In this document: piece by piece, positions 1,991 to 62,529 of the stretch
Numbering within the stretch: the first letter of the stretch is position 1
Layout of the letters: every line of letters begins with the position of its first letter
NCBI GenBank assembly: GCA_029168955.1
Contig: JAPDOI010000445.1
Span: forward strand, 434,001-498,000
From: Aplectana chamaeleonis
Lineage: Eukaryota; Nematoda; Chromadorea; Rhabditida; Cosmocercidae
Direction of reading: 5' to 3'
Length of the DNA stretch: 64,000 bases
Notes under the pieces: model-generated
Database searches by the model: none
What the model saw: the letters and a program-made list of their open reading frames with translations, nothing else
Told to the model about the DNA's origin: nothing
Translations under genes and position numbers: made by a program

Positions 1991-2012
1991 TAGCTTGGGT
2001 AACTGAACCGGC
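1991..2012 (-). repeat. SL1-leader-like sequence (copy e)
   Basis: The minus strand reads GGTTCAGTTACCCAAG followed by CTAGGTCC. It resembles the nematode SL1 leader core TTACCCAAGTTTGAG, with substitutions near the 3' end. The downstream sequence (CAGCCGCTGG...) resembles that after the copies at 9845 and 10412. It is a repeat-embedded relic, not a functional SL RNA gene. Confidence 0.5.
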
Positions 2013-2693
2013 GACGAATCCTACATCTGGGTCTCGCCTCAAGAAAGCGTCGCATGCATTACCGTTTTGGAAAACCACTGAAATTGAGTTGAATGTCTAC
2101 CACTCATGGATTGAACGTTGTATTTGTTGGGGCACATGCTGCAAATTGAAACGCAATAGGAGCACGTGCTTCTCTAGCAGCACGTTAACTAATTTTGCTT
2201 CAAACCGCCTTGACCTTGAGTTGAATGCATATTAGACACGCCCTGAATGCGGCGATTGTGTGAGATTATGAGAGGCTACACCGCCGCGCATATAAACGAC
2301 AGTCAGCTCTGCTAAACCATAATTAAGAACTGTTTCATATCTGTCGGCAGTCTTCCTGGCAACTTGAATAGAATGATAGAATAGCAATGGTCAACTCAAA
2401 AAAAAACAGCAGGGAATTTTAACTCTTGAATAAAGTTAAACTTCCCTATACTTTTGTTTATAAGTTTTCAGGCGAAGATATAAGGCGCTGGGCAAGTGTA
2501 TCGGAACACCTACTTCCGAACAGTTCAGTCTTCCGCGCATATCTCCACTATAATGACATTTTAACAGGTGAGTTTTCAAGGCTTAGTAGAGCAACAAACT
2601 CTGCGAAGAGCTCTACTTTCAAGTTAGCTTTTGAAATCCTGATTCATGAGTTAAAAATTTTTTAATAAAATTTCAAGGGTTTTGGTCATTTAA

Positions 2694-4246
2694 AGGCACT
2701 GTTCGCGATAAACCTCATCCGCGGATTTTTCATGACAAACGCTTCTCGTGGCTCTCAGAAGAAGAACAGCGTCGAAAAACCTGGAAGAAAAGCTACCCAG
2801 GAGCCGCAAAACGGCTTACAAGGGAAGTATACAAAGCGTAGGTCGGATCTGCCAAAACGACTAGTGTCGCTGGCATCTCTTGTGGCTCAATAGTAAAACT
2901 GCGCAGTATCCCGCCCCGAGCCTCAGGTTCCAAGAAGTTACAAGCTAAAAAGCTCATTTTTTGTGCTTTTTGTACCTTCCCAAAGGCGCGTTAGTCATCG
3001 AAAAATCCGGAAACGGACCTCATAAATGTGTTCAGCGTCAAAAACTACCCCCTTGAGCAAAGTTTGGGTGAAGGCACATTTTCCGTACTTTGTCCAGACT
3101 AACAGCGTTTTGGACTTGAACGGATTTTCGGTTGGGCGTTTATATCTACCAATTGAGGGCTCTGGAAGCGTTTTAGAAAAATTGTCCAGATTTGACTTGA
3201 AATTCTCCCAAGAGGGTTTTTCGGGGCGCTGATCACGAATCTGTGGTTAATTAGTCGATTTTCCAATGTTTTCGGCTAATTTCGTTGGAAGCTTCCCAAC
3301 CGGGGAAAATTTCGAGGGAAAAACGCGACTTTCGAGATTTCCGGTTCTCTACGATAGATGTGTATCAAAATCATGTTCTATGAGGGTTATTGGGAGAGCT
3401 TAACACGAATCTGGAGTCTGTTTATCGATCTTTTGCAGATTACGGTAGATTACGGTGGGTATTCGGTAGTTTGGTAAAAATCTCAGATTTCACTCAAAGT
3501 TTGATACGGGGGTTATTCGGGGTGGAGAATACGAATTTAACGTCCGTTTGTCGATTTTCAAAATACTGAAGTGGGTTTTAATCCCTAAATGACATGTTAC
3601 CTACCGTAACCTTCAGTAAACCTCAAAATTTCGACAAATGGACTCCAGATTCGTATTCGCCACCCTAGACTACCCCTACATACAACTTTTGAGCTAAATC
3701 CGAGAAAAACTTTTGAAACTACAAAAAAAATGCCCTTGCCTTTTCGCCAGGCTTAAAAAAGGCTCACAACTTTTTTGAGCCTGCGGTTCGCGGCGGGATA
3801 CTGCGCATTTTTACTATTGAGCCAGAAGAGATACTAACCATACTAGCCGTTTTCGCAGATCCGACCTACGCTTTTTATACTTCCCTTGTTAGAAAAGTGG
3901 GCAAACCCCGCCGCTGTGGGCAAGTCCCGCCCCTTCCCGCCACGTGAACAAAGGAACACTCGAAATCGTGAGTTGAGCGATGGTTTCCGATCAAAAGCCC
4001 CGTTCTTCCCTTCACTCTCAACTTCTCTCTTTACTCAGGTCAGCTCGCATACATTGGCTGCAAAAGACGGAAGTTTCATGCCTCGGACAAGTCGTCCACC
4101 ATTTTCCCTCGCTCAATTTTTGGGGTACCATAACTCCATTCCCAGAAGGTCTTGTACGATTTCAGGGACATCATCGGAATCAGCATGGAGCCGTTTTAAA
4201 GATAGGCGGAGAAACAGAAAAACGATTATTATCGCGAACAGTGCCT
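2694..4246. mobile_element. TTAA element, family D, copy 1, interrupted
   Basis: Left end TTAA|AGGCACTGTTCGCGATA; right end TATCGCGAACAGTGCCT|TTGA. Without the insertion at 2819-3888 it would be about 485 bp, the length of the copies at 13123-13607 and 41519-42003. It encodes no transposase. The right flank TTGA is shared with the next element. Confidence 0.85.
2819..3888. mobile_element. Harbinger-like element, family C, copy 1
   Basis: Inverted termini CAAGGGAAGTATACAAAGCG / complement ending ATACTTCCCTTG, continuing into GTAGGTCGGATCTGCC and on for about 110 bp. It is flanked by TTA on both sides (2816-2818 and 3889-3891). The homologous uninterrupted sequence near 13251 reads GGCTTAGAAG, an empty site with a single TTA, which proves the 3-bp duplication. 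The interior is built of repeated motifs (GAACACGAATCTGAGGTCC, TTTGTCGATTTTC). Superfamily is inferred from TSD length and target only. Confidence 0.8.
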
Positions 4247-5221
4247 TTGAAGGCAGCGATCACGATGGAAAACGTTATCGAAAAAACTACAAAAATCAGC
4301 TTAGCTCAAAAACAGCTGAAAAACTATGAAGGTAGCGCCGCGAAAAACGGGGTAGAATCAGAGTTTTTAAGGCCCAACGATGCTAGTTCGTGCACAAGTG
4401 CACAGCGCCGACAAAAAAGATCGCAGTCTCATGCCGAGCAGTCAAAAACCATGGACATTCAGAGGGAGGAAAACTGCAAATTTACCTACTCAGGTAAACC
4501 TAGTTGTCCAGAATCTGACGAATAGGTGTTGAGAATCGGTCGACAATCGAGAAGTTGTCCAGAAAGTTGTTAGGAGTTGTCGAGAATTCGGAGATTCGCA
4601 GTATTTGTCGAGATTTGCGGCCGATTTGTTCAGAATTTCAGAGAGAGTTGCCGAGAATTCGAGGGAACGAGTGCTTGCTGAGAATTCGGATAGATTTCTC
4701 GACACCTTCTTCCGAAATTGAGAATATGTTTCGAATATGTCGAAAATTTCCCAAGAATTCAGGACATCACTTTAGAACCCGCTTTACCCCACTTTCTTCA
4801 ATTATTGCGACGGCTGTTTTTGTTCTTTTCTTTTCATGTGGGTCCTCTGTGGTTTTTTTCTTTTTTTCTCCATTCTTCTAGCTGGTTATCAATTATATTA
4901 CATTTCACCGACTTCTTGAATATCAAACTCGCTTCTTTTTTAAATTTTCATCTTCTCAAAATAGCGAACATACCAAAACATGGGATTTTCTAGTTAAAGA
5001 ATTTTGAAAGTTTACGAGCTTTCAAGGACTGATCTTTTTTCCATGATCGGTAGTTGCGGCAGTCGGATTCAAAATATAATATTTAAGAAGTTACCCAAGA
5101 AGTATCAGAACAACGTTTGAAATTAAGATTGTTAATTCTAATAAATCCCGAATGATTCAGTTCTGACCGAAATTTGCAACTCTAAGCCTTGCAATGTTTG
5201 TTTATCATTACATTAATGTAC

Positions 5222-5640
5222 AATATGTGGACCCGCTGAAAGTCCACATTTCGCAAAGTATGGGTCACGAGAGTACGATATTTGAGTTTATCGGGGTCTA
5301 TTTACCTTCCATACAAACTTCCACCGCCTAAGATGAAGTCAGAACCCCTCTACAGTATAATGGTTCACACCTTTCTCAGGTGTGGTCCAGCCGGAAGTCG
5401 ACTATTTTGAAAACTAGGAGCCACGAGAGTAGAATATTTGAGTCCAGCGTGGTCGATTCACTCGGTATGCAAATCTTCACCGCCTAATATGGAGGCTGAA
5501 CACCGCTACAGTATAATGGCGCACACCTTTCTCAGGTGTGGTCCCGCCGGAAGTCGACAATTTTGAAAACTAGGACCCACGAGAGTAGGGTATTTGAGTC
5601 CAGCGTGGTCAATTTACTCTCTACTCAAACTTTCACCGTC
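5222..5640 (+). repeat. 156-bp tandem repeat, about 2.7 units
   Basis: CACACCTTTCTCAGGTGTGG starts at 5366 and again at 5522, a 156-bp period. A third, more diverged unit lies at 5222-5365. Each unit has a short palindrome CACACCTTTCTCAGGTGTG and the phrase CCACGAGAGTAG. Confidence 0.8.
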
Positions 5641-5905
5641 TTAGAGTACTTCCGAGGACCACTACACTGATAGCGCACTGGTGCTGGTCAAGGCCAATAG
5701 CGGCCCATGTTGAACGATTTTGTAGACCCACAGCACATACGATGCACAGTTTGCCTCTGCCAAACGTCGATGAAGCCAGCCAATTTAAGGATTCGGTCAA
5801 CAGAGTAATGTGAAACCATCTTCGTAGGCTTCGCCGACCGATGTAATCATCGGTTGAGCAGGAGCTCCAATTTTTGGGTAAGTGCATACAGTCGTACATG
5901 TGTAA

Positions 5906-6201
5906 GGCCTATGGTATACTTTGTCGCTGTAATGAGCGACAGGCATGCAATCTAACACGAATCGTGGCGGGACCCGCATCGGAGCAACGGCAACGGTCGT
6001 CGTAGGAACAGATGTCGCGTGTGGGTCGCAGCGACGTGTCGCGGAGGGCTGACATACTGCAAATGTGCTATAGCCTGTCGCTACCACTGTCGCTGTCGCT
6101 GTGCAGTGCACTGCGACAGCGACAGATTTAAAGGACGGGAGGTGGTCGCTGTCGCTGTGCAGAGCGACGCGACCGTGTGTCGCAAAAGTATACCATGCCC
6201 C
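5906..6201. mobile_element. Harbinger-like foldback with TAA duplication
   Basis: Left TAA|GGCCTATGGTATACTTT, right AAAGTATACCATGCCCC|TAA. The interior is rich in GTCGCTGTCGCT and its complement. The GG-rich ends and 3-bp TWA target duplication fit PIF/Harbinger MITEs. Confidence 0.7.
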
Positions 6202-6703
6202 TAAAAAAATTTGTTAACTGTCGAGAGTCGGGCAAGGAGTTGTCGGGAGTTGGTCGAGAAGTTGTCGGGCATTGTCGAGAATTGGGCAAAAAGTTGTCCA
6301 GAATTCTCTAGAGTCTGCGAAAGTTGTCCTGCATTCGTACGCCTGCAGGACAACTTTTCGTCCGATTTTCGACAACTAGTTACCTGAGAATAAAAACAGT
6401 TGAGCAATGAAAGAAAGCATTCCAGTCAAGGTTTTTGACTATATGTGTACATAAATCCGAAGGTTCATTGATTGAAATTGAATTTCAAGCCAGCTGATGT
6501 TCTTGATATAAGAGGTCATCGATGCGGATGATGTGGGGTGGACTCGTCCAAAATCAAAATACAAGAAAGTTCAGACTTCAAATTTCGCTCGAAACAGTGA
6601 TTTTTTCGCGATTTTTTCCTATGGGTCCTACTACTCAAGAACCAGAAAAAGGTTTACAGAGAAAAAAACGACAATAACATTTGATCGCGACCATTACCTT
6701 CAA

Positions 6704-7158
6704 AGGCAGTGTCCACGATCAGAACCATGTCCGATTTTTTGGTGGAGATCGGCAGCTGCGGGGCCTAGCGCAACCCTAACGTTGAAAAAACTAAGAAAAT
6801 TGAGCTTGGAACGGTCCCCTACGGCCCCCAAAGTTGGACACCCGTCAACTCGTCACACCCAGATGCACTTTCCACGCCCACCGACGTGAACAAAGCTCCG
6901 ATTAATAGCCCCGTTCTTCCCTTCATTCTCAACTTCTCTTTTTACTCATGTCAGCTCGCATAGATCGGCTGCAAAAGAAGGAAGTTACAAGCCTCGGACA
7001 ACTCGTCCACCGTGTTTTCTTAGCTCAATCTTTGAGGGACCATAACTCCGTTCCCAGAAGGTCTTGTACGATTCCAAAAACATCATTGGAATCAGCATGG
7101 TACCGTCTTCAGGATAGGCAAAAAAGCAGAAAAACGATTCTTATCGTGAACACTGCCT
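6704..7158. mobile_element. TTAA element, family D/L, copy L1
   Basis: Left TCAA|AGGCAGTGTCCACGATC, right TTATCGTGAACACTGCCT|TTAA. The body shares with family D the block around CCATAACTCCGTTCCCAGAA. It abuts family F copy 1 at a shared tetranucleotide. Non-coding. Confidence 0.75.
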
Positions 7159-7680
7159 TTAAGGGCAATTTTCAAAACAATCTTGTTGAACTGCAAACTC
7201 TGTGTGCTCAATTGATATTAAAGTGACTTCGAAATTAAAATGTAGAAAAGAAGGTGACGAGCTGTCAACGAAAACGGTAATCAGAGTAAAAAAGTTGCAT
7301 TTTCGTGGATTTTCTCAAAAAATAAAATGCTCGAAATGAACCAATATGGAAACATTCCAACATAAGCGCTGTACATGAGACGCAAAGGTCACTCAAAAGT
7401 GTAAATCATACGGCCAATTCTTCACCTTTAGTAGTACTAGGACGTTGAAGGTGCGAATTATTACACTGCTGCCTAGTAGATGCCTGCCCCCATAACTCGG
7501 GAAAACACTGCTCTCAAAATTGCACAATAAGTCTTCAGAGAGTTCATTTCACGTCTGATCAAAATTAAAACTTTGGGCAGCGACGGAAGCCGCTTCGAAG
7601 AATTACATGGATTTCGAAAAAAATGCTTGCAATGCTACATAAATAATCATCTTGTAACCTATACTGAACCAAAATCAACT

Positions 7681-7820
7681 TCAAAAAGGCGTTAGACTTC
7701 TAGTGTAATGCTGGTCAACATATCTTAGATTCGAAGATTCTCGTTCACGATGCAAAAGAATACGCCGGAAGGATTGAAACCCACGGAATGTGGTGTTCCG
7801 ATACTTTTGCCCCCTACTGT
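7681..7820 (-). mobile_element. Tc1-like terminal fragment in pmt-1 intron 2
   Basis: The minus strand starts ACAGTAGGGGGCAAAAGTAT then CGGAACACC, the style of Tc1/mariner inverted termini. A related end is at about 2488-2530 (GGGCAAGTGTATCGGAACAC). No transposase is seen and the opposite end was not located. Confidence 0.5.
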
Positions 7821-8665: not shown

Positions 8666-8697
8666 TTACAATGAAACAAATTCTCCCAAACAAGCAC

Positions 8698-9280: not shown

Positions 9281-9844
9281 TACTCTGTAATTTTGACCGA
9301 GAAATAGCAGCGAAATAGTCGAGAAATAGCCCATCACGCTCCGGAGCGGCTCTTGGCGAGCTACTTCTCGGCTATTTCGCAGCTATTTTTCGGCCTTTCA
9401 CAATACGGACAAGAAGCAGCCGATAAATAACCAAGAAATAACTAGAAATAACCAAAATCAGCCGAGACGCGGCCGGCGCACCGACACGCGACACATCCGT
9501 CGCCGGTCCGCTGAGCCGCCATTCTCTGAAAAATATTGCCTAGACTTTCCCGCAACTGCGCAGTCGCAGGGGAGGACCGCAGACGATTCTTCATTGACCA
9601 AATTGCGGAGAGGCCGCGGACGGGTCCCGAAGGAGTCGCGGTAGAGTTGCGGAAGCCTGACCCACGGAGAAGTCGCGGAGGAGTCGCGGCAGAGTCCAGG
9701 GTCGCGGGGGAGTCGCGGAACATTACGGAATCGTGGTGGAGTCACGGGACAGTAACGGAATAGTTGCGGCAAATTATCTCAGAGTCCGGAGCCGCCAGCG
9801 GTTGGGCGGGGCCTCCAGTGGCTGAGCGAGGTCCAAATATGTAC

Positions 9845-9860
9845 CTCAAACTTGGGTAAT
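9845..9860 (-). repeat. SL1-leader-like sequence (copy d)
   Basis: The minus strand has ATTACCCAAGTTTGAG followed by GTACATATTTGGACC. The 16-nt 3' part of the SL1 leader is exact; the 5' six bases differ. The GT after the leader is kept. Confidence 0.65.
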
Positions 9861-10411
9861 AGTATATAAAACTTGGGTAAATACGGAGGTGTTGAGATCT
9901 GAATCATTCCTCTGGAGAACATTATTTCTCGGCTATTTCTCGGTCATTTCTCGGACTTTAACGAAACGGACAAGAAGTAGCCCAGAAGTAACCAAAAATA
10001 GAAGAAACGCGGCCGGAACAGTCACGCAACACAGCCGTCGCCGGTTTGCTGAGCCGCCATTCTCTGAGAAATATTGCCTAGACTTTCCCCCAACTGCGCA
10101 GTCGCGGGTTTGATGCGGGGCAGGACCGCAGACGACTCTTCATTGACCGAATTGCGGTGATGCCGCGGAAGGGTCCCGCAGGAGTCGCGGTAGAGTTGCA
10201 GAAGCCTGACCCACGGAGAAGTCGCGGAGGAGTCGCGGCAGAGTCCAGGGTCGCGGGGGAGTCGCGGAACATTATGGAATCGCGGTGGAGTCGCGGAGCA
10301 GTAGCAGAAGAGTCGCGGGGCAGTAGCAGAAGGGTCGAGGCAATTTATCTCAGAGTCCAGGGCCGCCAATGGTTGAGCGAGACCTCCAGTGGCTGAGAGA
10401 GGTTTAAGTAC

Positions 10412-10433
10412 CTCTAACTTGGGTAACTAAACC
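10412..10433 (-). repeat. SL1-leader-like sequence (copy c)
   Basis: The minus strand reads GGTTTAGTTACCCAAG then TTAGAG and GTACTTAAACC. It matches 20 of 22 leader positions by hand count, with a GT directly after. The downstream phrase CAGCCACTGGAGGTCTCGC recurs after copy d. Confidence 0.65.
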
Positions 10434-10726
10434 GACGGAGGTGCTGACATCTCAATCATACCTCTGACGAGCATTGTTTCTCGGCTATTCCGCGGATACT
10501 TCGCGACAAGCATTATTTGACGACTATTTCGCCGCCAGCATTATTCAGAGGCTATATCTCGGCTATTTCAAGGCTATTTCGCTGCAACCGTTTATTTCCC
10601 GGTTATTTCTAGACTATTGCGCGGAGAGCAGGCATTTCGCAGCTATTTATCGACCAAAGCTCCAGAGTATCGAGTGGCTCCCGCGGCACCAGCGCGGAGC
10701 CGCCGCCTACAATTCGACTTGATAGT

Positions 10727-11241
10727 TTTTTTTTCAGCCAACCAGTCTTTTAAGGGTAAACTGCCGTGTTGGCTCCGCAATGACGCCGCGTCAGCGCCTG
10801 TAAGCACGGACCCGGCACTACCGAGGCGACTCCCCTCAAGGCACTCTTTCGAAAATCCGAAAAAGGAAGGTGTGGCTACAGAAGACTGAAGGTCCTCTGA
10901 GAATTTTGGCCGAAAAATAGTCACGAAGTAGCCCAACAGACTCCTCAGCGGCTCCTGATGAGCTATTTCCGGCTATTTCGCGGTTATTTTTCGGCTACTA
11001 CGCGGCTACTTTCGGCAAAAGCTCTCAGAGTATCGGGTGGATCCCATGACACCAGCGAGGAGACGTCGCCAACAATTCGTCTCGGTAGTTTTTTTTTAGC
11101 CAACCCGCCTTTGAGAGGTAGACTGCCGTGGTGGCTCCTCAATAACGCCGCGTCGGCGCCAACAAGCACCAACCGGCACTATCGCGGCGACTCCTCTCAA
11201 GGCACTCTTTCGAAAATCCGAAAAAGGAAAGTGTGGCTACA
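10727..11241 (+). repeat. tandem direct duplication, period about 361 bp
   Basis: Blocks 10727-10880 and 11088-11241 share AAGGCACTCTTTCGAAAATC, CGAAAAAGGAA and GTGTGGCTACAGAAG. The sequence between them has the GAAATAG/CTATTTC motifs. No gene recognised. Confidence 0.7.
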
Positions 11242-13118: not shown

Positions 13119-13122
13119 TTAA

Positions 13123-13607
13123 AGGCAATGTTCGCGATAAACTTCGTCCTCGAATTTTCCATGACAAACGCTTCTCGTGGCTCTCAAAAGCAGAACAGCG
13201 TCGAAAAAACTGAACGAAAAGCTACCCAGGAGCCGCAAAACGGCTTAGAAGAGTGGGAAAATCCCGCCATTGTGGGCAAGCCCCGCCTCTCCCCGCCCCT
13301 CGACGTGAACAAAGGAACACTCGAAATCGTGAGTTGAGCGATGGTTTTCGATCAAAAGCCCCGTTCTTCCCTTCATTCTCAACTTCTCTCTTTACTCAGG
13401 TCAGCTCGCTCACATTGGCAGCAAAAAACGTAAGTTACAAGCCTCGGACAACTCGTCCACCATTTTCCCTAGCTCAATTTTTGAGTTACCATAACTCCAT
13501 TCCCAGAAGGTCTTGTACGATTCCAGAAGCATCATTGGAATCAGAATGGGACCGGTTTCAAGATAGGTAAGAAAACAGAAAAGCGATTTTTATCGCAAAC
13601 AGTGCCT
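13123..13607. mobile_element. TTAA element, family D, copy 2 (carries the empty site)
   Basis: Left TTAA|AGGCAATGTTCGCGATA, right TATCGCAAACAGTGCCT|TTCA. At 13248-13256 it has the uninterrupted GGCTTAGAA that receives family C in copy 1. One frame stays open over most of its length but ends in a stop before the right terminus. Confidence 0.85.
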
Positions 13608-14599
13608 TTCAGAGAAGAATATTTCTATCGGAATGGCCACTTTGACCAAAAGGAGTTCCCTTGTTGAACCCGTATTTCATTTTCTGGTAGATTAGGTATA
13701 GGTAAATGGTAATTTGCCTCAAGTCTAAGATTTGGCTCAAATTCTACCAAGTGATGTTATTTTCCTGTGCCGGTCAGCGAATGACCTCACTAGGACTTAC
13801 TTATATTTCCCGAAGGCTTTTATAAAACCGTGCGTTGGTAATTATAGGTATGGGACACAGCATTGATAATCCGTTTTTGAAATCGGCTTAATGGGGTTCT
13901 ATAGGTTATTTTGGGTGCTGATTACGAATCTGAGGCCCATCAGTCAACATTTCTAAAATTCCATTTGATTAGGTCCGAAGCTTCAAAATGGGGGACTTTT
14001 GCTGCCCAAACGCGACTTTTGACGATTTCGAGAATGCTACGATCAAATCGCCTCAAAACTTCTACATCAGGTCTGAGCGGAACTGTTCCGTTTCCGCTTC
14101 CGTTTCCGACATTTTAGGACCGGAAAGGGAAGAGCTGTAATGGAAAGAGGTGTATGCAAGGATGCTTCAAATTACGAGGAGAGACCGAGATTCTCTGCCA
14201 AACTCTTGTGTTCATCGAATATGTATCTGAGCCTGGCTAAGGTTCTTGACAAAGTAGGGCCGCCAAAGCCTTCTTACTCGTTTGTCAACCTTCACAACAA
14301 CAATAAGAATCGCGACGCGTTTTCTTGACGTACAGCCTGTCCTTCAGAAAGCAGTTTGGGCGGAGGCAGGTGGAGGTGGCCACAGGCATCGGCACTTCGC
14401 GTTAGAGGGAAATCACAGTTGAATTTTCCCATACTCGACAATGAGCTTTCTTTTATGTTTTATCAAGGTTCAGAATAAAACCTAAACAGTCAACGGTGAT
14501 AATTTGAAGACCGACTTCTGATCAGCTTTGAACACACAGCGCGTCAACCCGCTTACAGCTATACCTGGTACAGCTTGGACTCTACCTGGGGAAAAGGCT

Positions 14600-35936: not shown

Positions 35937-37022
35937 TTAATAAAAAAGTAGATACAACTTTGGTTTAGTCTGGTCTACACGAGAAACTTAGGCTATTTAT
36001 CTATATGGGTTTGGATGATCTTGTAATTAGCGGAAAATTATCCTTGGAAGAAAGCACTTTACATTCCCCTCAGTTCCTAAACAGAAATATTCATTCCTTT
36101 ATCTAGTGCAGCATTGATCCTTGCGCGTACTTCGTGCGATTTGTGTGTCGCTGTACACCGCACACACAAATATTGTGTGTTGTCCGCAGCTACACAAAAT
36201 CTCCTAGTATTGTTCTAGAGAAATCACAGAAAGAAAAGTATTGGAAAAGCAGATACATGAGAACAGAATCACAGCTCGCCGATCACTTTAAACAGCTGCT
36301 TGCAGCGACCGAGCCACGTCACTTCTTTCTTGTTTACTTGAACAAAACTCTGATCACAGCGTCGAAAAGATAGCGAGAAGACGGACATATACACACTCTA
36401 GTTAGTAGAAAGCAGTCTATGAGAATTCATAAGCGTTAAATTGAGCATATAGGTATGTAAGTTATCACTGTTTGATGATGTTTCGTAGAAATGTCCGAAG
36501 GAAGCAATATGGGCGTGAAGACCACTACACGTGCGACAAACATGCTGCCAGCCACCTACGGCAGCGATGAGAGGGAAGTTCATGAAAAGTGTGAACAAAA
36601 ACGCCCACGCTAAATTCCACATATATATGTAGCTTATCATTCGCCGAACGACAGCGCAACATTTTACCTAGCGGTGCAATAAGAATATACGTAATTAAAG
36701 AGAATTTTTGATAGTTTATGCATGTGCTAGCCGCCATCTTAGAAAAAGCAAAACGAGTTTCTTGCAATATAAATGTAACTTATTTGAATGTCTCAAGTAA
36801 CTTACATTTATATTACATGTAACATACTTTTATATTACATGTAACTTAGATTTATATTACGTGTAACTTACACTTATGTTTCATGTAACTCAAATTTGAA
36901 TTCTCACTATGGGTGGCCATCACGAAACGCAGACGACACGCGACGCAGAGGGCTCGTCCCAGACCACACACTACGCAAAAAATGCTGTGCAGGGCCATCC
37001 CTACTGGTGTGGGGTCAAATAG

Positions 37023-37044
37023 CTCAAACTTGGGTAATTGAACC
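37023..37044 (-). repeat. SL1-leader-like sequence (copy a, best match)
   Basis: The minus strand reads GGTTCAATTACCCAAG then TTTGAG; 21 of 22 positions equal the SL1 leader as I know it (T to C at one position). It is followed by CTATTTGACCCCACACCAG rather than GT. It lies in the left arm of the 1.9-kb palindrome. Confidence 0.75.
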
Positions 37045-38396
37045 AACAGCAACGCCAGTCGTAAGCCTGAGCCTGCGAGTGCGTCGTACATAAACCTTGG
37101 AAATATCTTCTTGGCCAATTTAAGTTACTTGCGACTTATATTGTGCCATTTAAGTTACATGTAACATACCGGAGGCACACTGCACGCAGTACCCTATCAG
37201 AAGTCGAAAACAAGTTACTTGTAACATATATAAGCTGGTGTAAGTTACTTTCGACTCATCTCAAGACATTTAGAGTACATGTAATATATCGGAGGCGCAC
37301 CGCACTTAAATGACCTGAGATAAGTCGCAAGTAACTCAAATCGGCTCAGATATGTTACAAGTAACTTGTTTTCGGCCTTTTACGTTGCAGGTGACATGTT
37401 TTCATTTTTCTGAGATGTCGGACTTCTCTTCCCTGATCGCTGGCTGATCGGTTCACCACAAAACCAAAAATGTTCTCTCTTGGCTAAAATTTGTATAGTT
37501 AACCGCAGCGTTGCGGTCGACACACTACATAAAACTACGGTGGAAAACCTGGCGCTTCGGCAGATTTCGTCATCAGCCAAAGCTGATTTTCTGGGTAAGT
37601 TACGGCTTTTCCTTTTTATCGCTTTTTTCTGTTTTATTTTTGTTTCTGACTCTTTTATCAATGCGAATAGGGGACTTTGTTAGTGAGTGAGGGAAAGCTG
37701 CAGTTTGTTCGGGCTTTATAGTGTTTTTTTTTCAAAATTCTACTTTAAAATTGAAAAAAACGGCGAATTTTTCTCACGCAGTAAGAAAAGCCCTTATTTG
37801 AACTATTGAAAAAGTCAGAAACAAAAATAAAGCATAAACATGCGTGAAAAAAAGAAAAACCGTAACCTAACCAGAATATCAGCTGTACTGTCCATCGATG
37901 CAAAAATCTGGCAAAGCGCCCGGTTTTCCACCGTAGTGTTAGTGTGTCGACCGCAAGCACACTATCGTCCTTTAGCATTGCGGTAAATTGTATGTATATG
38001 CTCTCGCACATGTGCATTTAGGGTGCGATAAGAAGTTCTTGTACAATCCTTCATTACTAAATCTATACAAGAAAAAACATTCTCTTATTTCAGACTGTGC
38101 TCATTTGGTTTACTCAGCAAAATGACAACAAGTTACTTGTAACATTAAAAGCCGTAAACAACTTACTTTCAACATTTCTGGCCTTACGTAAGTTGCTTGC
38201 GACTCATCTTAGGTCATTTAAGTTACATGCAACATATCGACGGGATACTGTGTGCAATGCTCCTCCGATATGTTACGTGTAACTCAAAGGGCACAGGACA
38301 AGTCGCAAGTAACTTAAATCGAACAAGAGAAGCATATTTCTAAAGGTAGTATACGACGCAGTGTTAGGGGTCAGGCTTAGGAGTGGCTTTGCTGTC

Positions 38397-38418
38397 TGTT
38401 CAATTCCCCAAGTTTAAA
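38397..38418 (+). repeat. SL1-leader-like sequence (copy g)
   Basis: Reads TGTTCAATTCCCCAAGTTTA then AAGTACTTGACCC. It is the partner of copy a in the right arm and diverged from it. Both are followed by a TTGACCC block and further alignable sequence. Confidence 0.55.
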
Positions 38419-38891
38419 GTACTTGACCCACACTAATAGGCAAGGCCTCGCACAGCGTTTTTCGCGTTGCCTGTGTTCTGGGACGCATGCGGACGCGTTC
38501 TCCGCGCCGCGTGGCGTCTGCGTCACGTCATGGCAATCCATGGTGGAAATATAAATAGAAGTTACATGATTCATAAGTGTAACCAAAACGCAATATAAAT
38601 GCAAAGTACTTGAAAGATTCAGGTAAGTTACATTTACATTCCAGTAACTTGCTTATATTTTCTGAGTAGATGAGTCTCTGTCCAAGAGCGCCTGAGGTTA
38701 TCGGGTCTCTATACGTAAGTCATCCTGAAACCAGTGTTCTGCGAAATAGCACTGCTATTCGATAGAAATTCGAGCCCAATTAGTGGGTTAAAAAATAGCA
38801 GCTTTTTACTCGAGACGAAATTTAGGGAAATTGCGTCTTCTTTTGTCGCTGGCAGGTACGCACGGCACACTCCTGCACCTTGCTTCAGTAA

Positions 38892-40713: not shown

Positions 40714-41438
40714 TTAGGTTGATGCAAAAGTTTCCAGACTTTTCACGACTTTGATTAAAACACTTTTATTTCAAAAACAAATAAGGCTCACCCAACATAA
40801 TAATTTCCATTACATTCAAGAACCCTTCGCCTCCGATTGGGCAGACCATGAATTTCCGACGCGTTGAACTCTGGCTGTTTCGAGTCGAAGTATTCTTCTA
40901 CGGTCATTTTGACTTTGTCAACGTTAGTGAACTGTTTTCCATCCAGGAAGTGCTGCGCTGCAAAGGGCGGAACAGATGGTAGTCGGAAGGGGCAAGATCC
41001 GGGCTATATGGAGGGTGAGGAAGAACTTCCCAGCCCAGGTCCAGCAGTTTCTGCTCGCCTTCTTCGCGACAATGCTCGGCCACACGTACCTCGGATAACC
41101 CGACAGAAAGTGCTGGACCTGGGATGGGAAGTTCTTCCTCACCCTCCATATAGCTCTGTTCTTAACCCTTTCGACTACCATCTGTTCCGCTCGATGCAGC
41201 ATTTCGCGGATGGAAAACAGTTCAATAACCATGACGAAGTCAAAATGGCCTTAAAAGAATACTCCGACTCGAAACAGCCAGAGTCCTACGAGTCGGGAAT
41301 TCATGATCTGCTCAATCGGTCGCGAAGGATCCTTGAATGGGATGGAAATTATTTTGCTGAATGAGCCTTATTTGTTTTTGGGATAAATGTTCTCTATTCA
41401 GAGTCGTGAAAAGTCCAGAAACTTACGCATCAACCAAA
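40714..41438. pseudogene. mariner remnant, two 3' halves head to head
   Basis: Both ends are the same mariner 3' terminus (TTAGGTTGATGC / GCATCAACCAAA) next to TA. The right half encodes VLDLGWEVLPHPPY, FDYHLFRSMQ and a C-terminus to TGA at 41364. The left half encodes DLGWEVLPHPPYSPDLAPSD and YHLF on the minus strand. These are the mariner transposase regions around the last catalytic Asp. The DNA-binding domain and first catalytic residues are missing. Flank 40180-40710 shows nothing recognised. Confidence 0.85.
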
Positions 41439-41518
41439 TAATCCAGAAAGGGGTGAGCAGCTGCTGAATCTGGTATGCATGCACAAGAAGTATAGCTGCA
41501 GTATAGCGAAACATTTAA

Positions 41519-42003
41519 AGGCACTGTTCGCGATAGAAATCTCTTTTCTGTTTTTTTGCCTATCTTGAAACCGGTCCCATTCTGATTCCAATGATGCTTC
41601 TGGAATCGTACAAGACCTTCTGGGAATGGAGTTATGGTCCCTCAAAAATTGAACTAGGGAAAATGGTGGACGAGTTGTTCGAGGCTTGTAACTTCCGTCT
41701 TTTGCAGCCAATGTATGCGAGCTGACCTGAGTAAAGAGAGAAGTTGAGAATGAAGAGAAGAACGGGGCTTTAGATCGAAAACCATCGCTCATCTCACGAT
41801 TTCGAGTGTTCCTTTGTTCACGTCGAGGGGCGGGAGGAGGCGGGACTTGCCCACAATGGCGGGGCTTGCCCACTTTTCTAAGCCGTTTTGCGGCTCCTGG
41901 GTAGCTTTTCGTCCCGTTTTTTCGACGCTGTTCTGCTTCTGAGAGCCACGAGAAGCGTTTGTCATGGAAAGTTCGAGGATGAAGTTTATCGCGAACAGTG
42001 CCT
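41519..42003. mobile_element. TTAA element, family D, copy 3
   Basis: TTAA|AGGCACTGTTCGCGATAG ... TTATCGCGAACAGTGCCT|TTCA. 485 bp, inverted relative to copy 2 and very similar to it. The shared frame is open across the element. Confidence 0.85.
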
Positions 42004-42515
42004 TTCACTTTTCACACCCCTACCCCGGGCGTCGCACCGTTGAGACAGCCATTATGTGGTTCCTCATAGCGCGTTTGTAGGTCCACCAAACATGGTTTAC
42101 GAAGGAAACCTCTCAGAGTTTCCTCTGTTTATCGTAAGTAGAGGGCTGGGTGATTGCGAAACTTCTACAGTTCTTCAAGAAACCCCGACAGTGGCTATAC
42201 CACCGGATAGCCCTCAACGCCAGGATCACGATATCACCCTAGTTTTTGCACAAAGTTGTGTTTGAAGCGAGTTATTCGGAAAGGACGTTCTCGCGCACTT
42301 TTTGACCAAATCCAATGAGAGGTATTCTGGAAATTTGGCTTTCATGCAAAAGTAGCGATTTGGGAAATGCCATTTGAAATTTTAAAAAAGCTTCAAAAAT
42401 ATCTCGAAATATCCAAAAAATGATTTGGCATGAAATAGCCTGAAGTAACAAAAAAGCTAAGCAATTGAGTGAAAAAACTTAAAATGCGAATTTCGCTCAA
42501 CGATTCCCAGTTTGA

Positions 42516-46738: not shown

Positions 46739-47477
46739 TTAAATAAGAGATTTCTGATAACCTACCGGGAATGAGAGACGGCTGATTTGCGTGAAGGTCA
46801 GTGTGAAGTGAGTCACTTTAGAGAACAAAAAAAATGAAGGAAGGGAGCACTATGAAATGATAAACCTTCGGAGAAAATAACACATTCTTATCTCTGATGT
46901 TCATCGTAGTTGCATTAGAGGAACCCTAATCAGATAAAAAGCCAGGTGAGCATGTTAAATCCTACAAAGGCAAATTCAAACTGGAACGGGAGAAGGTGTT
47001 ACTGCGAGAAGGTGATCACTGGTCAAAATGGCGTGATGTGCGTTGGCGAATTCCAGGCGCACTTCGTTCCTCGACCAGATAAGGCAAGTCGTCGACTGAA
47101 TTTCGCACCCTGTTTATGACGCTTGGATACCTTCATGGGTACAAGGTTCACAATCCGCGTAGAGAAAGGTTCAGAATTTTGCCAGCAGTGATTTCAGGAA
47201 CCTGCTCATGTACTAAGGAGTGGACTCAATTCAAATTTTAAGAAACGCAGATGATTGAGAAGTATTAGAGAAGTCTCTGAATTGAGCTAGATTTCGAAAA
47301 AATAGGGAGAAGCGCTTGAAAACGTCGCACAGTTTCACTTGGAGGCTAATGTTTGCTTGACATGGGATTCGTATTCGTTTCTGAATGATTGAGCACTTCA
47401 CGTAGTGATGTATCCTCTGGTTCGGGGTTAACACTTAGGAGACCGCGCGTTCCATGGCTAGTAGAGTATGTCAACGA

Positions 47478-47760
47478 ATATTCGGAAAACGAATATTCGG
47501 GCGAATAAACGAATAATCGAATATTCGAATAATTCGATTATTCGGAAAAGTCAATTTTTCGAATAATTCGTTTATTCGAATATTCGGAAAAGTCAATTTT
47601 TCAAATTATTCGTTTATTCGAATATTCGGAGAATTCAATTTTTCGAATAATTCGTTTAATCGAATATTCGGAGAAGTCAATTTTTCGAATAATTCGTTTA
47701 TTCGAATATTCGAACGGCCCAATATTCGAATATTCGGCCGAATAAACGAATAATTCCAGA
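47478..47760 (+). repeat. tandem array, unit about 40 bp
   Basis: Units of the form AGTCAATTTTTCGAATAATT-CGTTTATTCGAATATTCGG repeat at least five times. A matching array at 48890-49190 has six or more. The motif is palindromic (GAATATTC, CGAATAATTCG). Confidence 0.85.
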
Positions 47761-48229
47761 AAAATAGGAACCAGTCTTCGGCACATGTCCATTTTGGCGG
47801 CCCAGAGGTGAAATGTCTCCAACCAAACTGGGATCTATCTTAGCGGGGGGAGGCACTATGGCTGGATGCACTTAGCCCCGCCTTTTACCGTGCCGCACTA
47901 AATTTGAGCTCACTCGGGGTTTCCCTCCCCTGCCAGAACCAGGATTGCAGCACACGGAAAAATGGGCGTGGCCAGGTGCGATACAACAGTGCCCCCCCGC
48001 TTAGATAGCACTCAAACAGATAAGAAATTCGGATATTGTTGATAGATACTGTTTAGAAAAGACAAAGACTTTGAACATATCGTTTAGCAACTACTCATAG
48101 ACAGTGATAAATGTTGGTTTGAATACTCTTATGATATAATGTGAAATGTCTTTTTCGTGGAAGTATATTGGCATAGCTTTGATCCATATAATACCATACA
48201 AAAAATCAAGAAAGTTGGTAGTGCCGCTA

Positions 48230-48840
48230 ATGGGGGTTCGATTATGCATACTTCTCTGAGAAAATTTGCCGTGTCAGTGCCGGGAAAGTACCGCGGCCCT
48301 CGACTGTGCCGTGATAGTTCCGCGATGGTACCACAGCTGCTCCGGGATCAGAAGATTTTGTTGCCGTGCCTTGAGCCTCGACATCGCCGCGATAGTACCG
48401 CAACGGCCACGCGGTAGAGCCGCGCCGGCTCGGCTAGGATGCAGCAGTGAACCCGTGTGGAGTACGATGTACTATCCTGTGTGGTAAAACGAAATCGTTG
48501 CCGGCTCAATTAGCCAAGTTTGAGGTACATTCCGTATTTCCTTGGGCGCAAAAGCAGCTGTGACCTCTGTCCCTATTAGACAAAGAACGTAACGACCGCA
48601 GGTGCGTATTTTGTCCTTAGGTCCTCTTAGTTGCATTATCATTCTTGAATAACTTCATATCAGATACTCCCCGGAGCCGCTGCCGCACTATCACGGAGCC
48701 GAAGCGGCACTGCCGCATCGCCGCAACAGCTCCGCGATAGCTCCGCTGCAGCTCCGCGGTAGTGCAGGCGCTGCTCCGCGATAGTGCCTGTAGGCTCCAA
48801 AGCTGCAGTATCGCGGGACCGCAGCGGCAATTTCTCTCAG
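48230..48840. repeat. GC-rich repeat with GCCGCGATAGT units
   Basis: Many GCTCCGCGATAGTGCC / GCGGTACTATCGCGG phrases on both strands at 48280-48420 and 48670-48830. The same family is at 60940-61500 within hAT B copy 2, and a related one is at 9.6-10.3 kb. Confidence 0.6.
48503..48524 (+). repeat. SL1-leader-like sequence (copy b)
   Basis: GGCTCAATTAGCCAAGTTTG + AG, followed by GTACATTCCGTATTTCC. 19 of 22 leader positions match by hand count and a GT follows. The downstream block, with CCTCTGTCCCTAT, recurs after copy f. Confidence 0.65.
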
Positions 48841-49474
48841 AGTCGGGCCGTACTTCTAATTCGATTTTTCGCGATTTTGACCGGATATTTGAATTATTCG
48901 CATTCGAATCATTCGAATAATTCGATTATTCGGAAAAGTCAAATTTTCGAATAATTCGTTTATTCGAATATTCGAAAAGTTAAACTTTCGAATAATTCGT
49001 TTATTCGAATATTCGAAGAACTCAATTTTTCGAATAATTCGTTTATTCGAATATTCGGAGGAGTCGATTTTTCGAATAATTCGTTTATTCGAATATTAGG
49101 ATAAGCCAATTTTTCGAATAATTCGTTTATTCGAATATTCGAAGGAGTCAATTTTTCGAATTATTCGTTCATTCGAATATTCGAAAATTTTTATTCTTTT
49201 GATATACTATAATGGCTAGCCCCCGTAGCGGACCGGCGCGCTCCACGGCCAATCACTTCAGTGAGTTTTTAAACTGATTTTTTGTTGCAATTGCCCATGT
49301 CAAAATTAGATATATGGCGCTTAATATTTGCTTACCACTTATGGAAGTTGTATGAAGCATAGATATAAAAGCAATAATTGGAAGTATTCCGTTTTTCTTG
49401 AGATAAAACGAAAAAAATCGATTTTTCGGAGTGGGTGAGCAGTGTGGACACGTGGTCCATTAAGTGTTAAATTT

Positions 49475-56849: not shown

Positions 56850-56853
56850 TTAA

Positions 56854-57297: not shown

Positions 57298-57301
57298 TTA
57301 A

Positions 57302-57932
57302 AGGCAGCATACACGCTCACAAACATGGTTGAGATAACAGCACAAATAGGACCGCCTGGCCCCTACCATCTCGTCAACGGCGTTTGAAGCGCTGAAAACC
57401 ATCCAGGTTGACAGAATTCGAGCATTCCCGTCTCGAAAGCCTGTGGAACCCCACCCCTACGAATAACAGAATGAAGAGTGAGGCATGTGAAAACATTTGA
57501 TAGCTTAGAGTGATAGCCCTAGCAAATGAGAGTCTACGAGAGAAACGGCTTGGTTTACCTGAATATAACATGTCTGCTTACTGATGAAATGCTCCATTTT
57601 ATAAGCCAGCCGGAGTAGATGGGCTTTCTTGAAAGTGGATGGGAATTAATCGGTATGTAAACAAGTTATATACAGGGAAATCAAGCTGTTTTTCTCGTAG
57701 ACCCTCATTATAAAGTGCTATCGCTCTAAATTATCAAATGCTTCCACATGCCTCACTCTTCATTCTGTTATTTGTAGGGGTGGGGTTCCACATGCATTTG
57801 AGAGGGGAATGCTCAAATTCTGTCAACCTGAATGGTTTTTAGCGCTTCAAACGCCGTTGACGGCATGGTAGGGGCCAGGCGGTGAAATTTATGCTGTTAT
57901 CTCAACCATTTTTGTGAGCGTGTATGCTGCCT
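57302..57932. mobile_element. TTAA element, family A, copy 3
   Basis: TTAA|AGGCAGCATACACGCTCAC ... GTGAGCGTGTATGCTGCCT|TTAA. Inner arms share CAAACGCCGTTGACG and GAATAACAGAATGAAGAGTG. No coding. Confidence 0.85.
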
Positions 57933-57989
57933 TTAAGCGAACTATCACGTCCTCATGTGTTTATCACATGCACAGCCGGAATGAAAGGT

Positions 57990-58275
57990 GCCTCATCTCA
58001 CACGATTTCTCATTCGGCATTCTAATGCCGGCCCTAGAAGGTTACTTGGAGTCCCTCTCCGGAGGCCAGCATATTTTTGGACGCTGGAGGGATACGGGAT
58101 CCTCACAGCTGGGGGGGGGGGAGGTTTCGCCGCGGTCCGCAGGGAGGGTGGTTCCTCACCGCAGACATCGGCGAAGGTTACGCCGTTGTTGCGGACCGAG
58201 GCGGGGATTTCTCTGCCGTGGACCGCGACATTCACGCACCTCTCGAGAAGAGGCGGATACAAAGAAAAACTAGGG
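57990..58275 (+). repeat. GC-rich repeat also seen near 39310-39560
   Basis: Shares the order CTCATCTCAC, GGAGGT, a G-run and GCGGACCG-rich text with 39310-39560. The inner part has GGTCCGC / GCGGACC inverted blocks. Function unknown. Confidence 0.45.
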
Positions 58276-58383
58276 AGAAATTTCAAAAATCGCCCGGACA
58301 GCCACCGCAGTGCTAAGTGCGACTGAATATCGCTCCGAGCGGGACTGCGGTCGACCGGAGAGCGGCTGCTGTGCCCCGATTAA

Positions 58384-58507
58384 GGCCGGGATCATACTTC
58401 CTGCGATCGACGATTGCGACGTTGCATAACAGGCATATCGATTTTCGGTCGATACTGATGGTAAACATTGCGTCGCGCCTATCGTCGCAGGAAGTATGAT
58501 TCCGGCC
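58384..58507. mobile_element. Harbinger-like MITE with TAA duplication
   Basis: TAA|GGCCGGGATCATACTTCC ... GGAAGTATGATTCCGGCC|TAA, perfect duplication. 124 bp. The interior GCATATCGATTTTCGGTCGA matches parts of 49475-50070, so it belongs to the same family. Confidence 0.85.
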
Positions 58508-60425
58508 TAAATGGCTGATTTTCGCTCGGAGCGGAGAGACAGCGTCGCTCGAATCGCTCTCCGGTCCCGCTCCAAGCGATGGTTCGCCTGAGTCGGACTC
58601 GTTATATGGGATCCATGGAACGGGGAAATCAGCTCAGAGTCGTTATATGGGAGCTATGAAACGGGGAAATTTTCTGAGCTGAAAACATCATCTCGATTTA
58701 AATTTTATTTTGAAGTTCCATCCATCAAAAAATTGTGCCAAAATAGGCTTCGTTACTAAGCGCAAAACCCCTTTTTTTCGTTTTTTCGTCTTCTAACTGT
58801 TTAATTGTACAAAGGGATTTTTTTAAACAATTCCCCGAGGGAATTTTCTCTTTACGGGATCACAGCACTTCAAAATCGGCCTTACGCACAGTTTGGGGGC
58901 AGGGCTACCGGTTCACTCGAATTCAAATTCCATGACCGCAACTTCTGCAAGGCCTATCTGAACGCTAAAAACATTTTGAGAAACTCTCATTCTTAACCAG
59001 ACATGGGACGTTTTCGCAAAGGAAGGTATTAATCAGTCAGAAATTTATTTCAGACTTGAACCTTCTCAGTTTTTTCTGTTTTCAAAGAGAAATAGGGTTC
59101 TTGCTGGAATGCAGATTCATGTCAAATTTAAAGCGGAGCAGTCAGGGTTCTCCAGAAGAACTTTCTAATCGTATTGTATTTCTCTAAAGGTGCTCCACTC
59201 CAAGTTTAGCTTCCAGACCACTTCAGACGGAGTTACCTGTTCAATTGGTACAGATTTCGGTGCTATTTCCTAATATTGATGAACAACGAGCAATCTTTGT
59301 TCAGAACCGATTTTCTTGGTACAATTGAACAGAGAAATTTCTAGGTCAGGATTTAGTTACCACAACAAAACTGAGTTTTGGTTTTGCGTTTCAAGAAATA
59401 TACGTTTTAATAAGAAAAGGACCTTGTGATGAGTCATGCTGCGTTTTTTGTGTGTTGAGTTTGTTTAATCGTTCCAGTAGAAACCTTACCCCATTATTCA
59501 CACAAAAATGTTTTGCCCTTGCGAAACATCAGCTTTCCAAAGTTAGCTTCTAGTCCAGTTGGGGCGTGGCCTTTATTTCACCTGATTTAAAAATCCATGC
59601 TATTGTAACTCCTGGAAGTGTCACCCACAAAAAGTCACCGAAAATTAGATTAGATCTGGAATTTTCATTTTATCAGTCAAGAAGTGCGATATCTACACAC
59701 ATAGAAGCATTTCTCAGTTTAAATTCATTTCGAATTTATGGTTTTTTAAGTAGTATTATTTAGGGCAAAACTCAGGTTCACCTCCTATTTCACGCTCAAT
59801 ACCATAGTTGTTTTGGAAGACTGATTCTCGTTGTTCAGAAATTTTTTAAAATTCTGCTTCGCTGCAGGACCCCAAAATTAGTCCTCAGACCAGTGGGGGC
59901 GGAGCCAGCAGATCCTAGTAGCTATAAATGTTGGTGCTAATAGATCAGCTCAAGTATTTCCTGATGAAAGTATTGATCCGGCTTTCTCTTTTCCTCATTT
60001 TATAGGAGCGTTGAAGCGGTAAATTTTATAGCAGTAAAAAATTTTGCTGATAAAGTTTTTTTCATACTTCTGGGTCTATGGTTATTTTCTGAGCTTATCA
60101 CTTATTAGAGATTATTATTCCTTTCTTCTATTCCCAACTTGTATCTTCCAACTGGTTGACTTCATTATTTTGCACGAATATAATGCATGGATTCATCGCT
60201 GCAACATCCCTAAATCAGCTTCCAGTCCATTTGGGGCGGGGCTATCAGTTCCCCGCAAGTTTGACTTCGATTTGCCAGAAACTAATCGAAAGACCGAAAC
60301 CAATTCGTATATCTCAAACTATTCTGCGAAAAATTGCACAAAAAGTCCCTAGAATGTGTGTGTTAATACTTTTCCGAAACGGCTAAGGCGTGATTCCTTC
60401 GACAGCTCGGTGAAAGGGCAGCAAA

Positions 60426-62529
60426 CAGGGATGTGCGGCAAACGATTTTAAAAAATCGGCAAACGGAAATCGACAAAATTTGTCTCAAAATGGCCCGCAA
60501 ACGGCAATCGACAAGCGGGAAAATAAAAAAAAACGTTACAAAAACGATACAAATGTTCTAAAAGTACTTGTTAAAATACTATTTTCTCATGCACATTTCG
60601 TATTTCAAATAGTCAGATAAGAAATTGTTTCTCAGTAATACCACAATAAGTTGAACCTCTTGCGTTGATACAATACCTGATAGAAACAGCACCGAAATTA
60701 ACATTCTATTTACACACTAGTAAGCGAAATGTTGTGGTGAAAGGATACTAATTTTTCGAGGTTCTCTGATGTCAACCTTTTTTGGAATATGTAGAAGTAT
60801 TTCATTTGCTTCGTGTTCCAAATTCATCGCACAAAATTCAGAATATCGCGCGATCCAAGTTAAGTGGGTGATCACACGAAATTCCTTCAAAGAAGTGAAG
60901 AGCTCAATGTGGCCTTACTTTAGCTGATTGGTTTCTAACGAGCGTGGCAGCCACGCCGCTTCTCTGGTACATGTTGCCGCTGCGGCTCCGCGATAAAGTC
61001 ACACCGGCTCCTACAGGCACAACAGAAGCACCGCGAAAGTGCCACTGCGGCTCCGGGACCGATGGCCGTGCCTTTACAAAAATAGGACCGACTGGGAGAA
61101 CCTCATATGAATTTAATTGTGGGTCATAGTACAAATGTGCGGGGCCTACGAAGAAAAATGTGCACCTATGGTTGTTAGGCTCTCTATCTGATAGGGACAG
61201 AGGGTATCCTCGTTACTGCGGGCAAGGAGATACGGGACGTGGGTAATCAAACTCGGGTGACTGAACCGGCGATACCACATAGGACGGTGCAACGTAGTCG
61301 ACGCGGGTTAGCTTATGCATCCTCGCGGAGCTGGTGCGGTTCTAACACGGAACCGCTGCGGTACTATCGAGGCAATGTCGCGGCGCTGTCGAGGGTCAAG
61401 GCACTGCAACAGAATCGTAACGGTAGTGATGCTCATGGAGCCGCTGCGGTACTACCGCGGAACTATCGCGGCACAGTTAAGGGTCACGTTACTTTCCCGG
61501 AACTGCTGCGGCAAACCTTCTCAGAGTTCGCGGCGTACCTCACGGTGTGTTTACTGTTCCACCGGAATTTATTGAAAGATAATGACATGAACAAATTCCT
61601 CTAAGACGCATGTTTTTGGACGGTCTTGTAAGCGTTTTTGAGAAACCGCTCCATATTCGGCATCTCTACCCTTAAGACCTTTCAAATTTCTTCTAAAATG
61701 TGCGCTAACAACTGAAATACAAACAATTGACTAGTTTTTCAAGCTTTGCACAAATACGACTCCTGAAAAACCGCGCATATCTCGAACCTCCTCTTTCCTA
61801 AGCCGTACGCCACCTCTTGTTCCCAACTGATCAATCTACACTCCGTGCATCCAGTTTAGAGTCAAGCAGCGAATTTAATCAAAACGGATGTTCCCCACGC
61901 CTTGTACACCCTCTCCCACCCTTTCAACTCAGAACTCCAACTTTCAACTTGGTGCCATATTTTTTAGCGCAATTGTGAGCATTATAGAAGATGGTGAAGT
62001 GAATAAGCCCACAAACTGCCGGTGAAGTCCAACACCCTTTACACGACGCTTTGAAAATTATCTGAAAGAATTTGATCCATTCAGCGTATTTCCTGAACCC
62101 TTTGTGCTCTCACCTAAAAATGATCAAGGTTTTAAATCCTGCCCCGATGAGCCTTACGTCAATTGCTCAAGCCTCAGCGAGGAGGCGGTGGGGAATTCGG
62201 TGTTCTTCCAGACAAGAGGACCCACACGAGCATGACACTGCAATACTAAAAATTGCTTTGACATGACCGCACGGTAGGTCACATCAACTGGCTTGAAGTT
62301 TTGTAGTACGTATAGTCTGTTTCTCTACCTTCGAGCCGGTCGCTGCACGGCTCAGCAGGTTTACCATGCGCGTCCTAATCTCGGCGTTTGTTATCTATTT
62401 CGCACTTTTTGCCGAATTTCGTCGAAAAGTGAGAGAAAAAGCGGCAAACGACAATCGAAAAAAATCGCCCGAAAACGGCCGGCAAACGGCGATCGGCAAC
62501 CGGCAAACGGCAATTGCCGCACATCCCTG
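60426..62529. mobile_element. hAT-like element, family B, copy 2
   Basis: Ends CAGGGATGTGCGGCAAACG and CAATTGCCGCACATCCCTG; flanks GCAGCAAA and GCCGCAAA agree at 7 of 8. 2104 bp. The left 200 bp and right 130 bp align with copy 1. The interior differs, with GC-rich GCGGTACTATCGCGG units and an SL1-like sequence. No transposase recognised. Confidence 0.85.
61246..61267 (-). repeat. SL1-leader-like sequence (copy f)
   Basis: The minus strand GGTTCAGTCACCCGAGTTTG + AT is followed by TACCCACGTCCCGTATCTCC. 17 of 22 leader positions match. The downstream block aligns with copy b, which supports common descent despite divergence. Confidence 0.5.

Follow-up and report, generated by a model that had tools for sequence, protein, structure and literature searches.

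Dispersed inverted-repeat elements in a nematode genome probably carry the 5′ module of the SL1 RNA gene

Introduction

Why does a 64,000-nt stretch of the genome of the nematode Aplectana chamaeleonis (contig JAPDOI010000445.1, positions 434,001 to 498,000; hereafter the window) contain sequences resembling spliced leader 1 (SL1) at seven dispersed places? Among the RNA components of nematode gene expression, SL1 is highly conserved, and in Ascaris the exon of the spliced leader (SL) also works as a promoter element. It is also a site of DNA events, as the NeSL-1 element reportedly inserts in the SL exon at one site. An initial annotation of the window suggested that SL RNA genes, or short interspersed nuclear elements (SINEs) derived from SL RNA, had been picked up and spread by DNA transposons. 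From the window and from searches of the whole assembly (1,036,593,504 bases or 1.04 Gb, 2,087 contigs), we conclude that the repeats are probably non-autonomous DNA elements, bounded by terminal inverted repeats (TIRs) and resembling miniature inverted-repeat transposable elements (MITEs), which carry the 5′ module of the SL1 RNA gene. The carried module would comprise three parts: ~46 bp lying upstream of the leader and including a TACGACGCACT-like block, the leader of 22 nt itself, and the donor with the start of the intron, which reads GTACTT in the consensus of two element families, D and A.

Results

SL1-leader-like copies in the window and the genome

Matches in the window were sought to the full 22-nt SL1 leader at up to 6 mismatches, with a Markov null and permuted SL1 as controls. 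Seven sites were found, against a mean of 0.73 and a maximum of 3 in 100 for the Markov null; permuted SL1 gave a mean of 0.68, but the maximum among 300 permutations was also 7. At up to 3 mismatches, three sites were observed and none in all 300 permutations. A position weight matrix built from the same seven sites scored them at 31-41 bits, with the next window site at 16.0 and the best of 20 random sequences at 22.3. The seven copies have 1-6 mismatches to canonical SL1 and are as follows.

Leader a, 1988..2009, minus strand: SL1-like, 6 mismatches, GTAC not next
Leader b, 9845..9866, minus strand: GTAC next; a second partial leader at 9866-9880
Leader c, 10412..10433, minus strand: 2 mismatches, GTAC next
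Leader d, 37023..37044, minus strand: 1 mismatch, CTAT next
Leader e, 38397..38418, plus strand: 5 mismatches, GTAC next
Leader f, 48503..48524, plus strand: 3 mismatches, GTAC next
Leader g, 61246..61267, minus strand: 5 mismatches, TACC next

The seven dispersed copies named in the initial annotation were thus confirmed. Its statement that GTAC-like bases follow most of them holds for b, c, e and f, in which exactly GTAC stands directly after the leader (4/7), and fails for a, d and g. Its grouping by downstream sequence (c, d, e; b, f; a, g, if lettered as listed) was wrong: alignments pair b with c (76%), d with e (65%) and f with g (68%), and a is weakly like c (66% over 93 columns).

Across the assembly, the exact 15-mer TTACCCAAGTTTGAG occurs 4,944 times (reversed control, 1), a leader with C at position 5 followed by GTAC occurs 12,984 times at up to 3 mismatches (control, 0), and the exact canonical leader followed by GT occurs 749 times (control, 0), a frequency above chance. 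Stretches of the genome chosen blind to the motif (230 kb) contain 9 sites at up to 5 mismatches against 0.5 for permuted SL1, and one of these 9 lies outside any element. A chance origin of the leader matches is ruled out by the null counts in the window, the motif-blind stretches and the genome-wide controls.

Sixty copies with up to 4 mismatches and enough flank were classed with score thresholds of our own choosing, giving 32 D, 14 A, 5 F, 3 SL genes and 6 others. The window copies d and e belong to family D, b and c to A, and f and g to F, while copy a failed to pass. The D and A consensus sequences differ from the canonical leader at position 5 only and keep the GTAC donor in a GTACTT start; the F consensus does not have GTAC. 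Identity to the family consensus, calculated on copies from the window and the motif-blind stretches that were themselves found by SL1 likeness, was 0.92 in the leader versus 0.79/0.81 in the flanks for D, 0.88 versus 0.76/0.86 for A and 0.85 versus 0.80/0.80 for F. In the C1 cut-outs, leader conservation is biased upwards because these were picked by the exact 15-mer. D units also occur in tandem, spaced 343-373 bp apart (L024).

An upstream module shared with the SL1-5S genes

The Rfam SL1 model (RF00198) identified three places in the genome (L044, L045 and L046) with scores of 45-50 bits, under the curated cut-off (75), among the 50 of 256,011 candidates that were scored. These stretches also hold a 5S ribosomal RNA (rRNA) gene at 105-114 bits, and SL1-5S linkage is an arrangement known from nematodes. 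All three read the leader followed by GTACTTTC, with GTACTT directly after the leader; L045 and L046 share 98% identity across 1.1 kb and could represent a single locus.

We compared the 50 nt before the leader with the SL1 genes, using 2000 shuffles and testing 21 pairs. About 46 bp before the leader, including the TACGACGCACT-like block, resemble the upstream sequence of the SL1 genes in groups A, a and D. Identity to L045 over the 50 nt was 31 for A, 29 for a and 33 for the L003 copy that is the sister of a (0/2000 shuffles each), and 24 for D (1/2000 shuffles, p 0.0005). The similarity to SL1 genes beyond the leader that the initial annotation raised is therefore present in the upstream stretch (A, a, D) and in the donor start, and it is absent from the bodies beyond the donor, which differ among the families and from the SL1 genes. 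Promoter-like modules were placed in the window at three copies.

Module of copy a, 2010..2055, minus strand: 29/50 nt identical to the sequence that precedes SL1 gene L045
Module of copy c (A family), 10434..10479, minus strand: window 10456-10406 aligns to SL1 gene L044 at 82%
Module of copy d (D family), 37045..37090, minus strand: family-level homology test

The motif could also have arisen by convergence, as a binding site for a transposase or a host factor that resembles SL1 by chance, and its position by eye, central between repeat arrays in several copies, would suit such a site. However, copy d matches SL1 at 21/22 positions, the GTACTT start and the upstream block are common to the elements and the 5S-linked SL1 genes, and hybrid loci, described below, join element and SL1-5S sequence. 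We consider convergence extremely improbable.

Inverted ends of the elements

Most copies lie in TIR-bounded, MITE-like elements of about 560-760 bp, which supports the spread of SL gene parts by DNA transposons. Self-alignment revealed TIRs of 35-39 bp (86-95%) in three of four D cut-outs (L085, L086 and L087; those of L084 were seen by eye only), and inverted ends in two of three A cut-outs (L088 and L089; 39 bp at 85% and 28 bp at 89%). In the window, the D and F copies are bounded by inverted ends of their family type, as judged by TIR match. The elements that hold the seven leaders are listed here.

a-type element stretch, 1994..2263, minus strand: 74% to the sequence before SL1-5S gene L044 and 69% to L003:8140-8607; element ends not found
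A-family composite holding b and c, 9282..10668, minus strand: A-type inverted ends at 9282-9318 and 10634-10668 enclose two units in tandem (9362-9953 and 9923-10505, 76%); additional A-type ends at 10895-10931 and 10995-11031
D-family TIR element holding leader d, 36738..37414, minus strand: D-type ends
D-family TIR element holding leader e, 38111..38669, plus strand: D-type ends; inverted relative to the d element
F-family TIR element holding leader f, 48254..48843, plus strand: ends of CTCTGAGAAAATTTGCCG type
F-family element holding leader g, 60960..61528, minus strand: TIR match gives the right end (61498-61527); the left end was placed by eye only

The palindrome at 36795-38654 was considered as a single element and rejected; the two inverted D elements that hold d and e form its outer parts.

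The donor start and upstream homology to the SL1-5S genes, together with D, A and F copies lying between inverted ends, bear out the proposal that parts of SL RNA genes were spread by DNA transposons. The other origin named in the initial annotation, RNA-copied SINEs derived from SL RNA, would account for the high copy number and the short length, but it is unsupported because the shared part begins ~46 bp before the leader and the elements are bounded by inverted ends. We regard it as quite improbable.

One F element, L003:3911-4427, is without ~98 bp from leader position 3-4 on. This is about the length of an SL RNA, and the locus could be an empty site or a deletion.

Probable exchange of upstream sequences and bodies inside the leader

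A pattern for the SL1 body found 14 places in the genome within 2 mismatches (control, 0), and all 14 were fetched. We took the joints described here directly from alignments and applied no statistical test to their clustering, and the S- and D-type sequences upstream of L066 and L064 were recognised by eye. A perfect canonical leader is present in 3 of the 14 bodies, L044, L045 and L046, and all three stand behind element-type upstream sequence. L044 combines a-element upstream sequence, 79% identical to L003 and 74% to window 2263-1994, with an SL1-5S body, while L045 and L046 combine S-type upstream sequence with an SL1 body. The first unit of L064 has D-type upstream sequence before an SL1 body, with a leader (GGTTCATTTACCC...) that is also present in some D copies, and the first unit of L066 has S-type upstream sequence before an SL1 body, with a leader one base short. 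Five tandem-array SL1 units, which are 5S-linked and lie in L064, L065 and L066, share another leader start, GGGTCATTAACCC, without an element-type promoter, and one of them is changed further near the end. In the four remaining bodies, L067-L070, the upstream sequence is unrelated. What all the bodies share starts inside the leader, at position 10 in the tandem units, 11 in L068, 9 in L069, 10 in L070 and 4 in L067.

As a separate observation, the different leader start in five SL1 tandem-array units of L064, L065 and L066 was recorded as GGGTCATTAACCCAAGTTTG.

The S upstream sequence was also used as a DNA query, which returned 127 candidates; all 40 that were scored match at 95-100%, with L045 and L046 among them. 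Twelve other S copies were fetched, and in the 11 that were readable the same upstream sequence and leader start lead into one body in 3 and another body in 8. SL1-5S bodies are thus joined inside the leader to a-, D- and S-type upstream sequences, and the S promoter repeat is joined to three bodies. One upstream module occurs with several bodies and one body with several upstream modules, and the changeover lies inside the leader.

These joints raise the possibility, which we put forward tentatively, that the working SL1 genes run on transposon-type promoters and leaders, with the leader as the joint, and that the SL1 source has been rebuilt from mobile elements. We consider this because the three perfect-leader bodies among the 14 all stand behind element-type upstream sequence, while the five 5S-linked tandem units carry another leader and no such promoter.

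For the elements as carriers of the SL1 5′ module, the following mechanism can be proposed from the sequences. The upstream block may act as an SL-type promoter, that is, a small nuclear RNA (snRNA)-like promoter for RNA polymerase II, and a capped, donor-bearing RNA would start at the first base of the leader. A transposase acting in trans would spread the copies as DNA. With its thousands of copies, the leader would then be the site at which recombination or break repair swaps promoters and bodies between the elements and the SL1-5S genes. The module may have passed from SL1 genes to elements or from elements to SL1 genes.

RNA features and use of the element leaders

Several results weigh against the reading of the repeats as TIR elements that carry the SL1 5′ module. 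No Rfam SL1 match was found at any window copy, at the gathering cut-off or at E ≤ 10; stem I after the leader gave p 0.04-0.84 in the window copies, none of them clear; Sm-like 9-mers occur in 2/7 window copies, the background being about 1.15 per stretch; and no covariation was found in the D alignment. Within the pairs b/c, d/e and f/g, the flanks are at least as conserved as the leader. The F upstream sequence is not significantly similar to that of L045 (19/50, p 0.19), and D against the other SL1 gene, L044, gave 19/50 ungapped (p 0.16; anchored score p 0.01). With regard to transposition, self-alignment found no terminal repeat in the F cut-outs L091 and L092 and the A cut-out L090, inspection of the element flanks showed no clear target-site duplication, and no transposase was found in what was scanned.

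The window copies are not intact SL RNA genes because their bodies past the donor differ and the window has no Rfam SL1 match. We rejected intact genes on these grounds and on the weak RNA features, and the suggestion of SL RNA genes in the initial annotation is not supported as far as complete genes are concerned. The Rfam SL1 search also found no match at E ≤ 1 in 19 element or mixed stretches plus L009, and a tRNA gene search found none.

The repeats might still be working alternative SL RNA genes that give a variant leader with C at position 5 (C5) to messenger RNAs (mRNAs), or decoys. The D and A consensus sequences retain the GT donor, the D alignment allows a stem I, and an Sm-like motif (A[ACT]?T4-8[GC]), sought at 20-60 after the leader, is present in 16/32 D copies at +37 to +42, near the +45 of the true SL1 genes. 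In contrast, the motif is found at this distance in 0/14 A and 0/5 F copies; further from the leader, it appears in 8/14 A copies (at 93-98) and 4/5 F copies (at 83-86). An indirect genomic test used the C5 leaders that do not stand before a G, of which there are 137. None of the 20 fetched resembles a junction of leader and mRNA; by thresholds that we chose, 11 fall into D, 5 into A, 3 into F and 1 into a, and 18 are clear element copies, the weak calls being L094 (F upstream only) and L112. The decoy use suggested in the initial annotation thus gained no support from these 20 of 137 places. Working alternative SL genes are unlikely in our judgement.

At L052 and L060, an ATG with an open frame follows immediately on a canonical-type leader, and L053 has the same sequence as L052; these loci say nothing on frequency because they were found via the canonical letters. 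Such junctions suggest that retroposed trans-spliced mRNAs exist elsewhere in the genome and could, in principle, have been amplified by transposons. However, the window copies keep promoter-like sequence before the leader, and four of the seven keep GTAC after it. A retroposed-mRNA origin of the element copies is already contradicted by these features, and we give it scarcely any credence.

Outside the elements, GT stands after canonical leaders more often than would be expected. The canonical leader followed by A, C or T totals only 144 places, compared with 749 for the leader followed by GT. Among 13 fetched places of these 749, which were not a random draw, 8 look non-element by eye; the loci recorded for this observation are L009:5939, L071-L073, L077, L079-L081 and L083.

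Comparison with known systems

The elements and the 5S-linked nematode SL1 RNA genes (RF00198; L044-L046 in this genome) are alike in the leader, the GTACTT start and, for A, a and D, the upstream block, but the elements have unrelated bodies after the donor, no Rfam match in the window and a position inside TIR elements. Of the descriptions found in the literature, MelSat01 and Pr77 come nearest. In Meloidogyne, the satellite MelSat01, or Mi-SL1b, is likewise SL1 gene sequence amplified as a repeat; it is a satellite that keeps ~90 bp of an SL gene, whereas the repeats here are dispersed TIR elements of several families with different bodies (PMC9673304). Pr77 of trypanosomatid retrotransposons is, like SL promoters, a short promoter bound by TBP and SNAP50 and is shared by different mobile elements; it sits at the 5′ end of protist retrotransposons of the non-long terminal repeat class, while the module here, including the leader, lies inside DNA elements (PMC8190864). 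Pseudogenes of snRNA and SL RNA are also dispersed and probably non-functional gene copies, but here a promoter and leader module precedes several unrelated bodies (PMC4233971, PMC7986045). NeSL-type retrotransposons target SL exons (PMC4640811), and in both cases the SL exon is a site of DNA events; the leader joints here only suggest a break site, and no search for NeSL elements was made. In the open-licence literature searched, we found no nematode TIR elements described as carriers of an SL gene module and no match to the variant leader letters.

If the elements do carry the SL1 promoter-leader-donor module, it exists in > 10,000 transposon-borne copies and is exchanged with 5S-linked SL1 genes. 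Module exchange of this kind would make it possible to study directly how SL genes are multiplied, how they come by other promoters and how they are kept correct. It also lets one ask whether transposons exploit an SL-type promoter, as seems to be the case for the Pr77 elements of trypanosomatids.

Other features of the window

The sole element open reading frame (ORF) scanned, at 10025-10426 on the minus strand, has no Pfam match, none of ten window ORFs scored above the Pfam cut-off, and a homologue search with a fragment resembling a long interspersed nuclear element gave no match at E ≤ 0.001. By eye, an ORF at window 40852-41364 resembles the end of a mariner-type transposase (Pfam DDE_3, E 0.073, below the cut-off). 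A hairpin at window 31574-31663 matches two microRNA families, on both strands and below their cut-offs, and is probably a palindromic repeat. Satellite arrays with a 42-bp unit of TCGAATAAT type flank element f at window 47475-47798 and 48862-49269; a TCGAATAAT-rich stretch was also seen by eye upstream of SL1 gene L045, and a BLAST comparison at 1e-6 gave no link between it and the arrays in the window. Finally, a 489-bp repeat is present as inverted copies, 94% identical, at window 13121-13609 and 41517-42005, and close to its ends it has TTAAAGGCA-type sequences, which are found repeatedly across the window.

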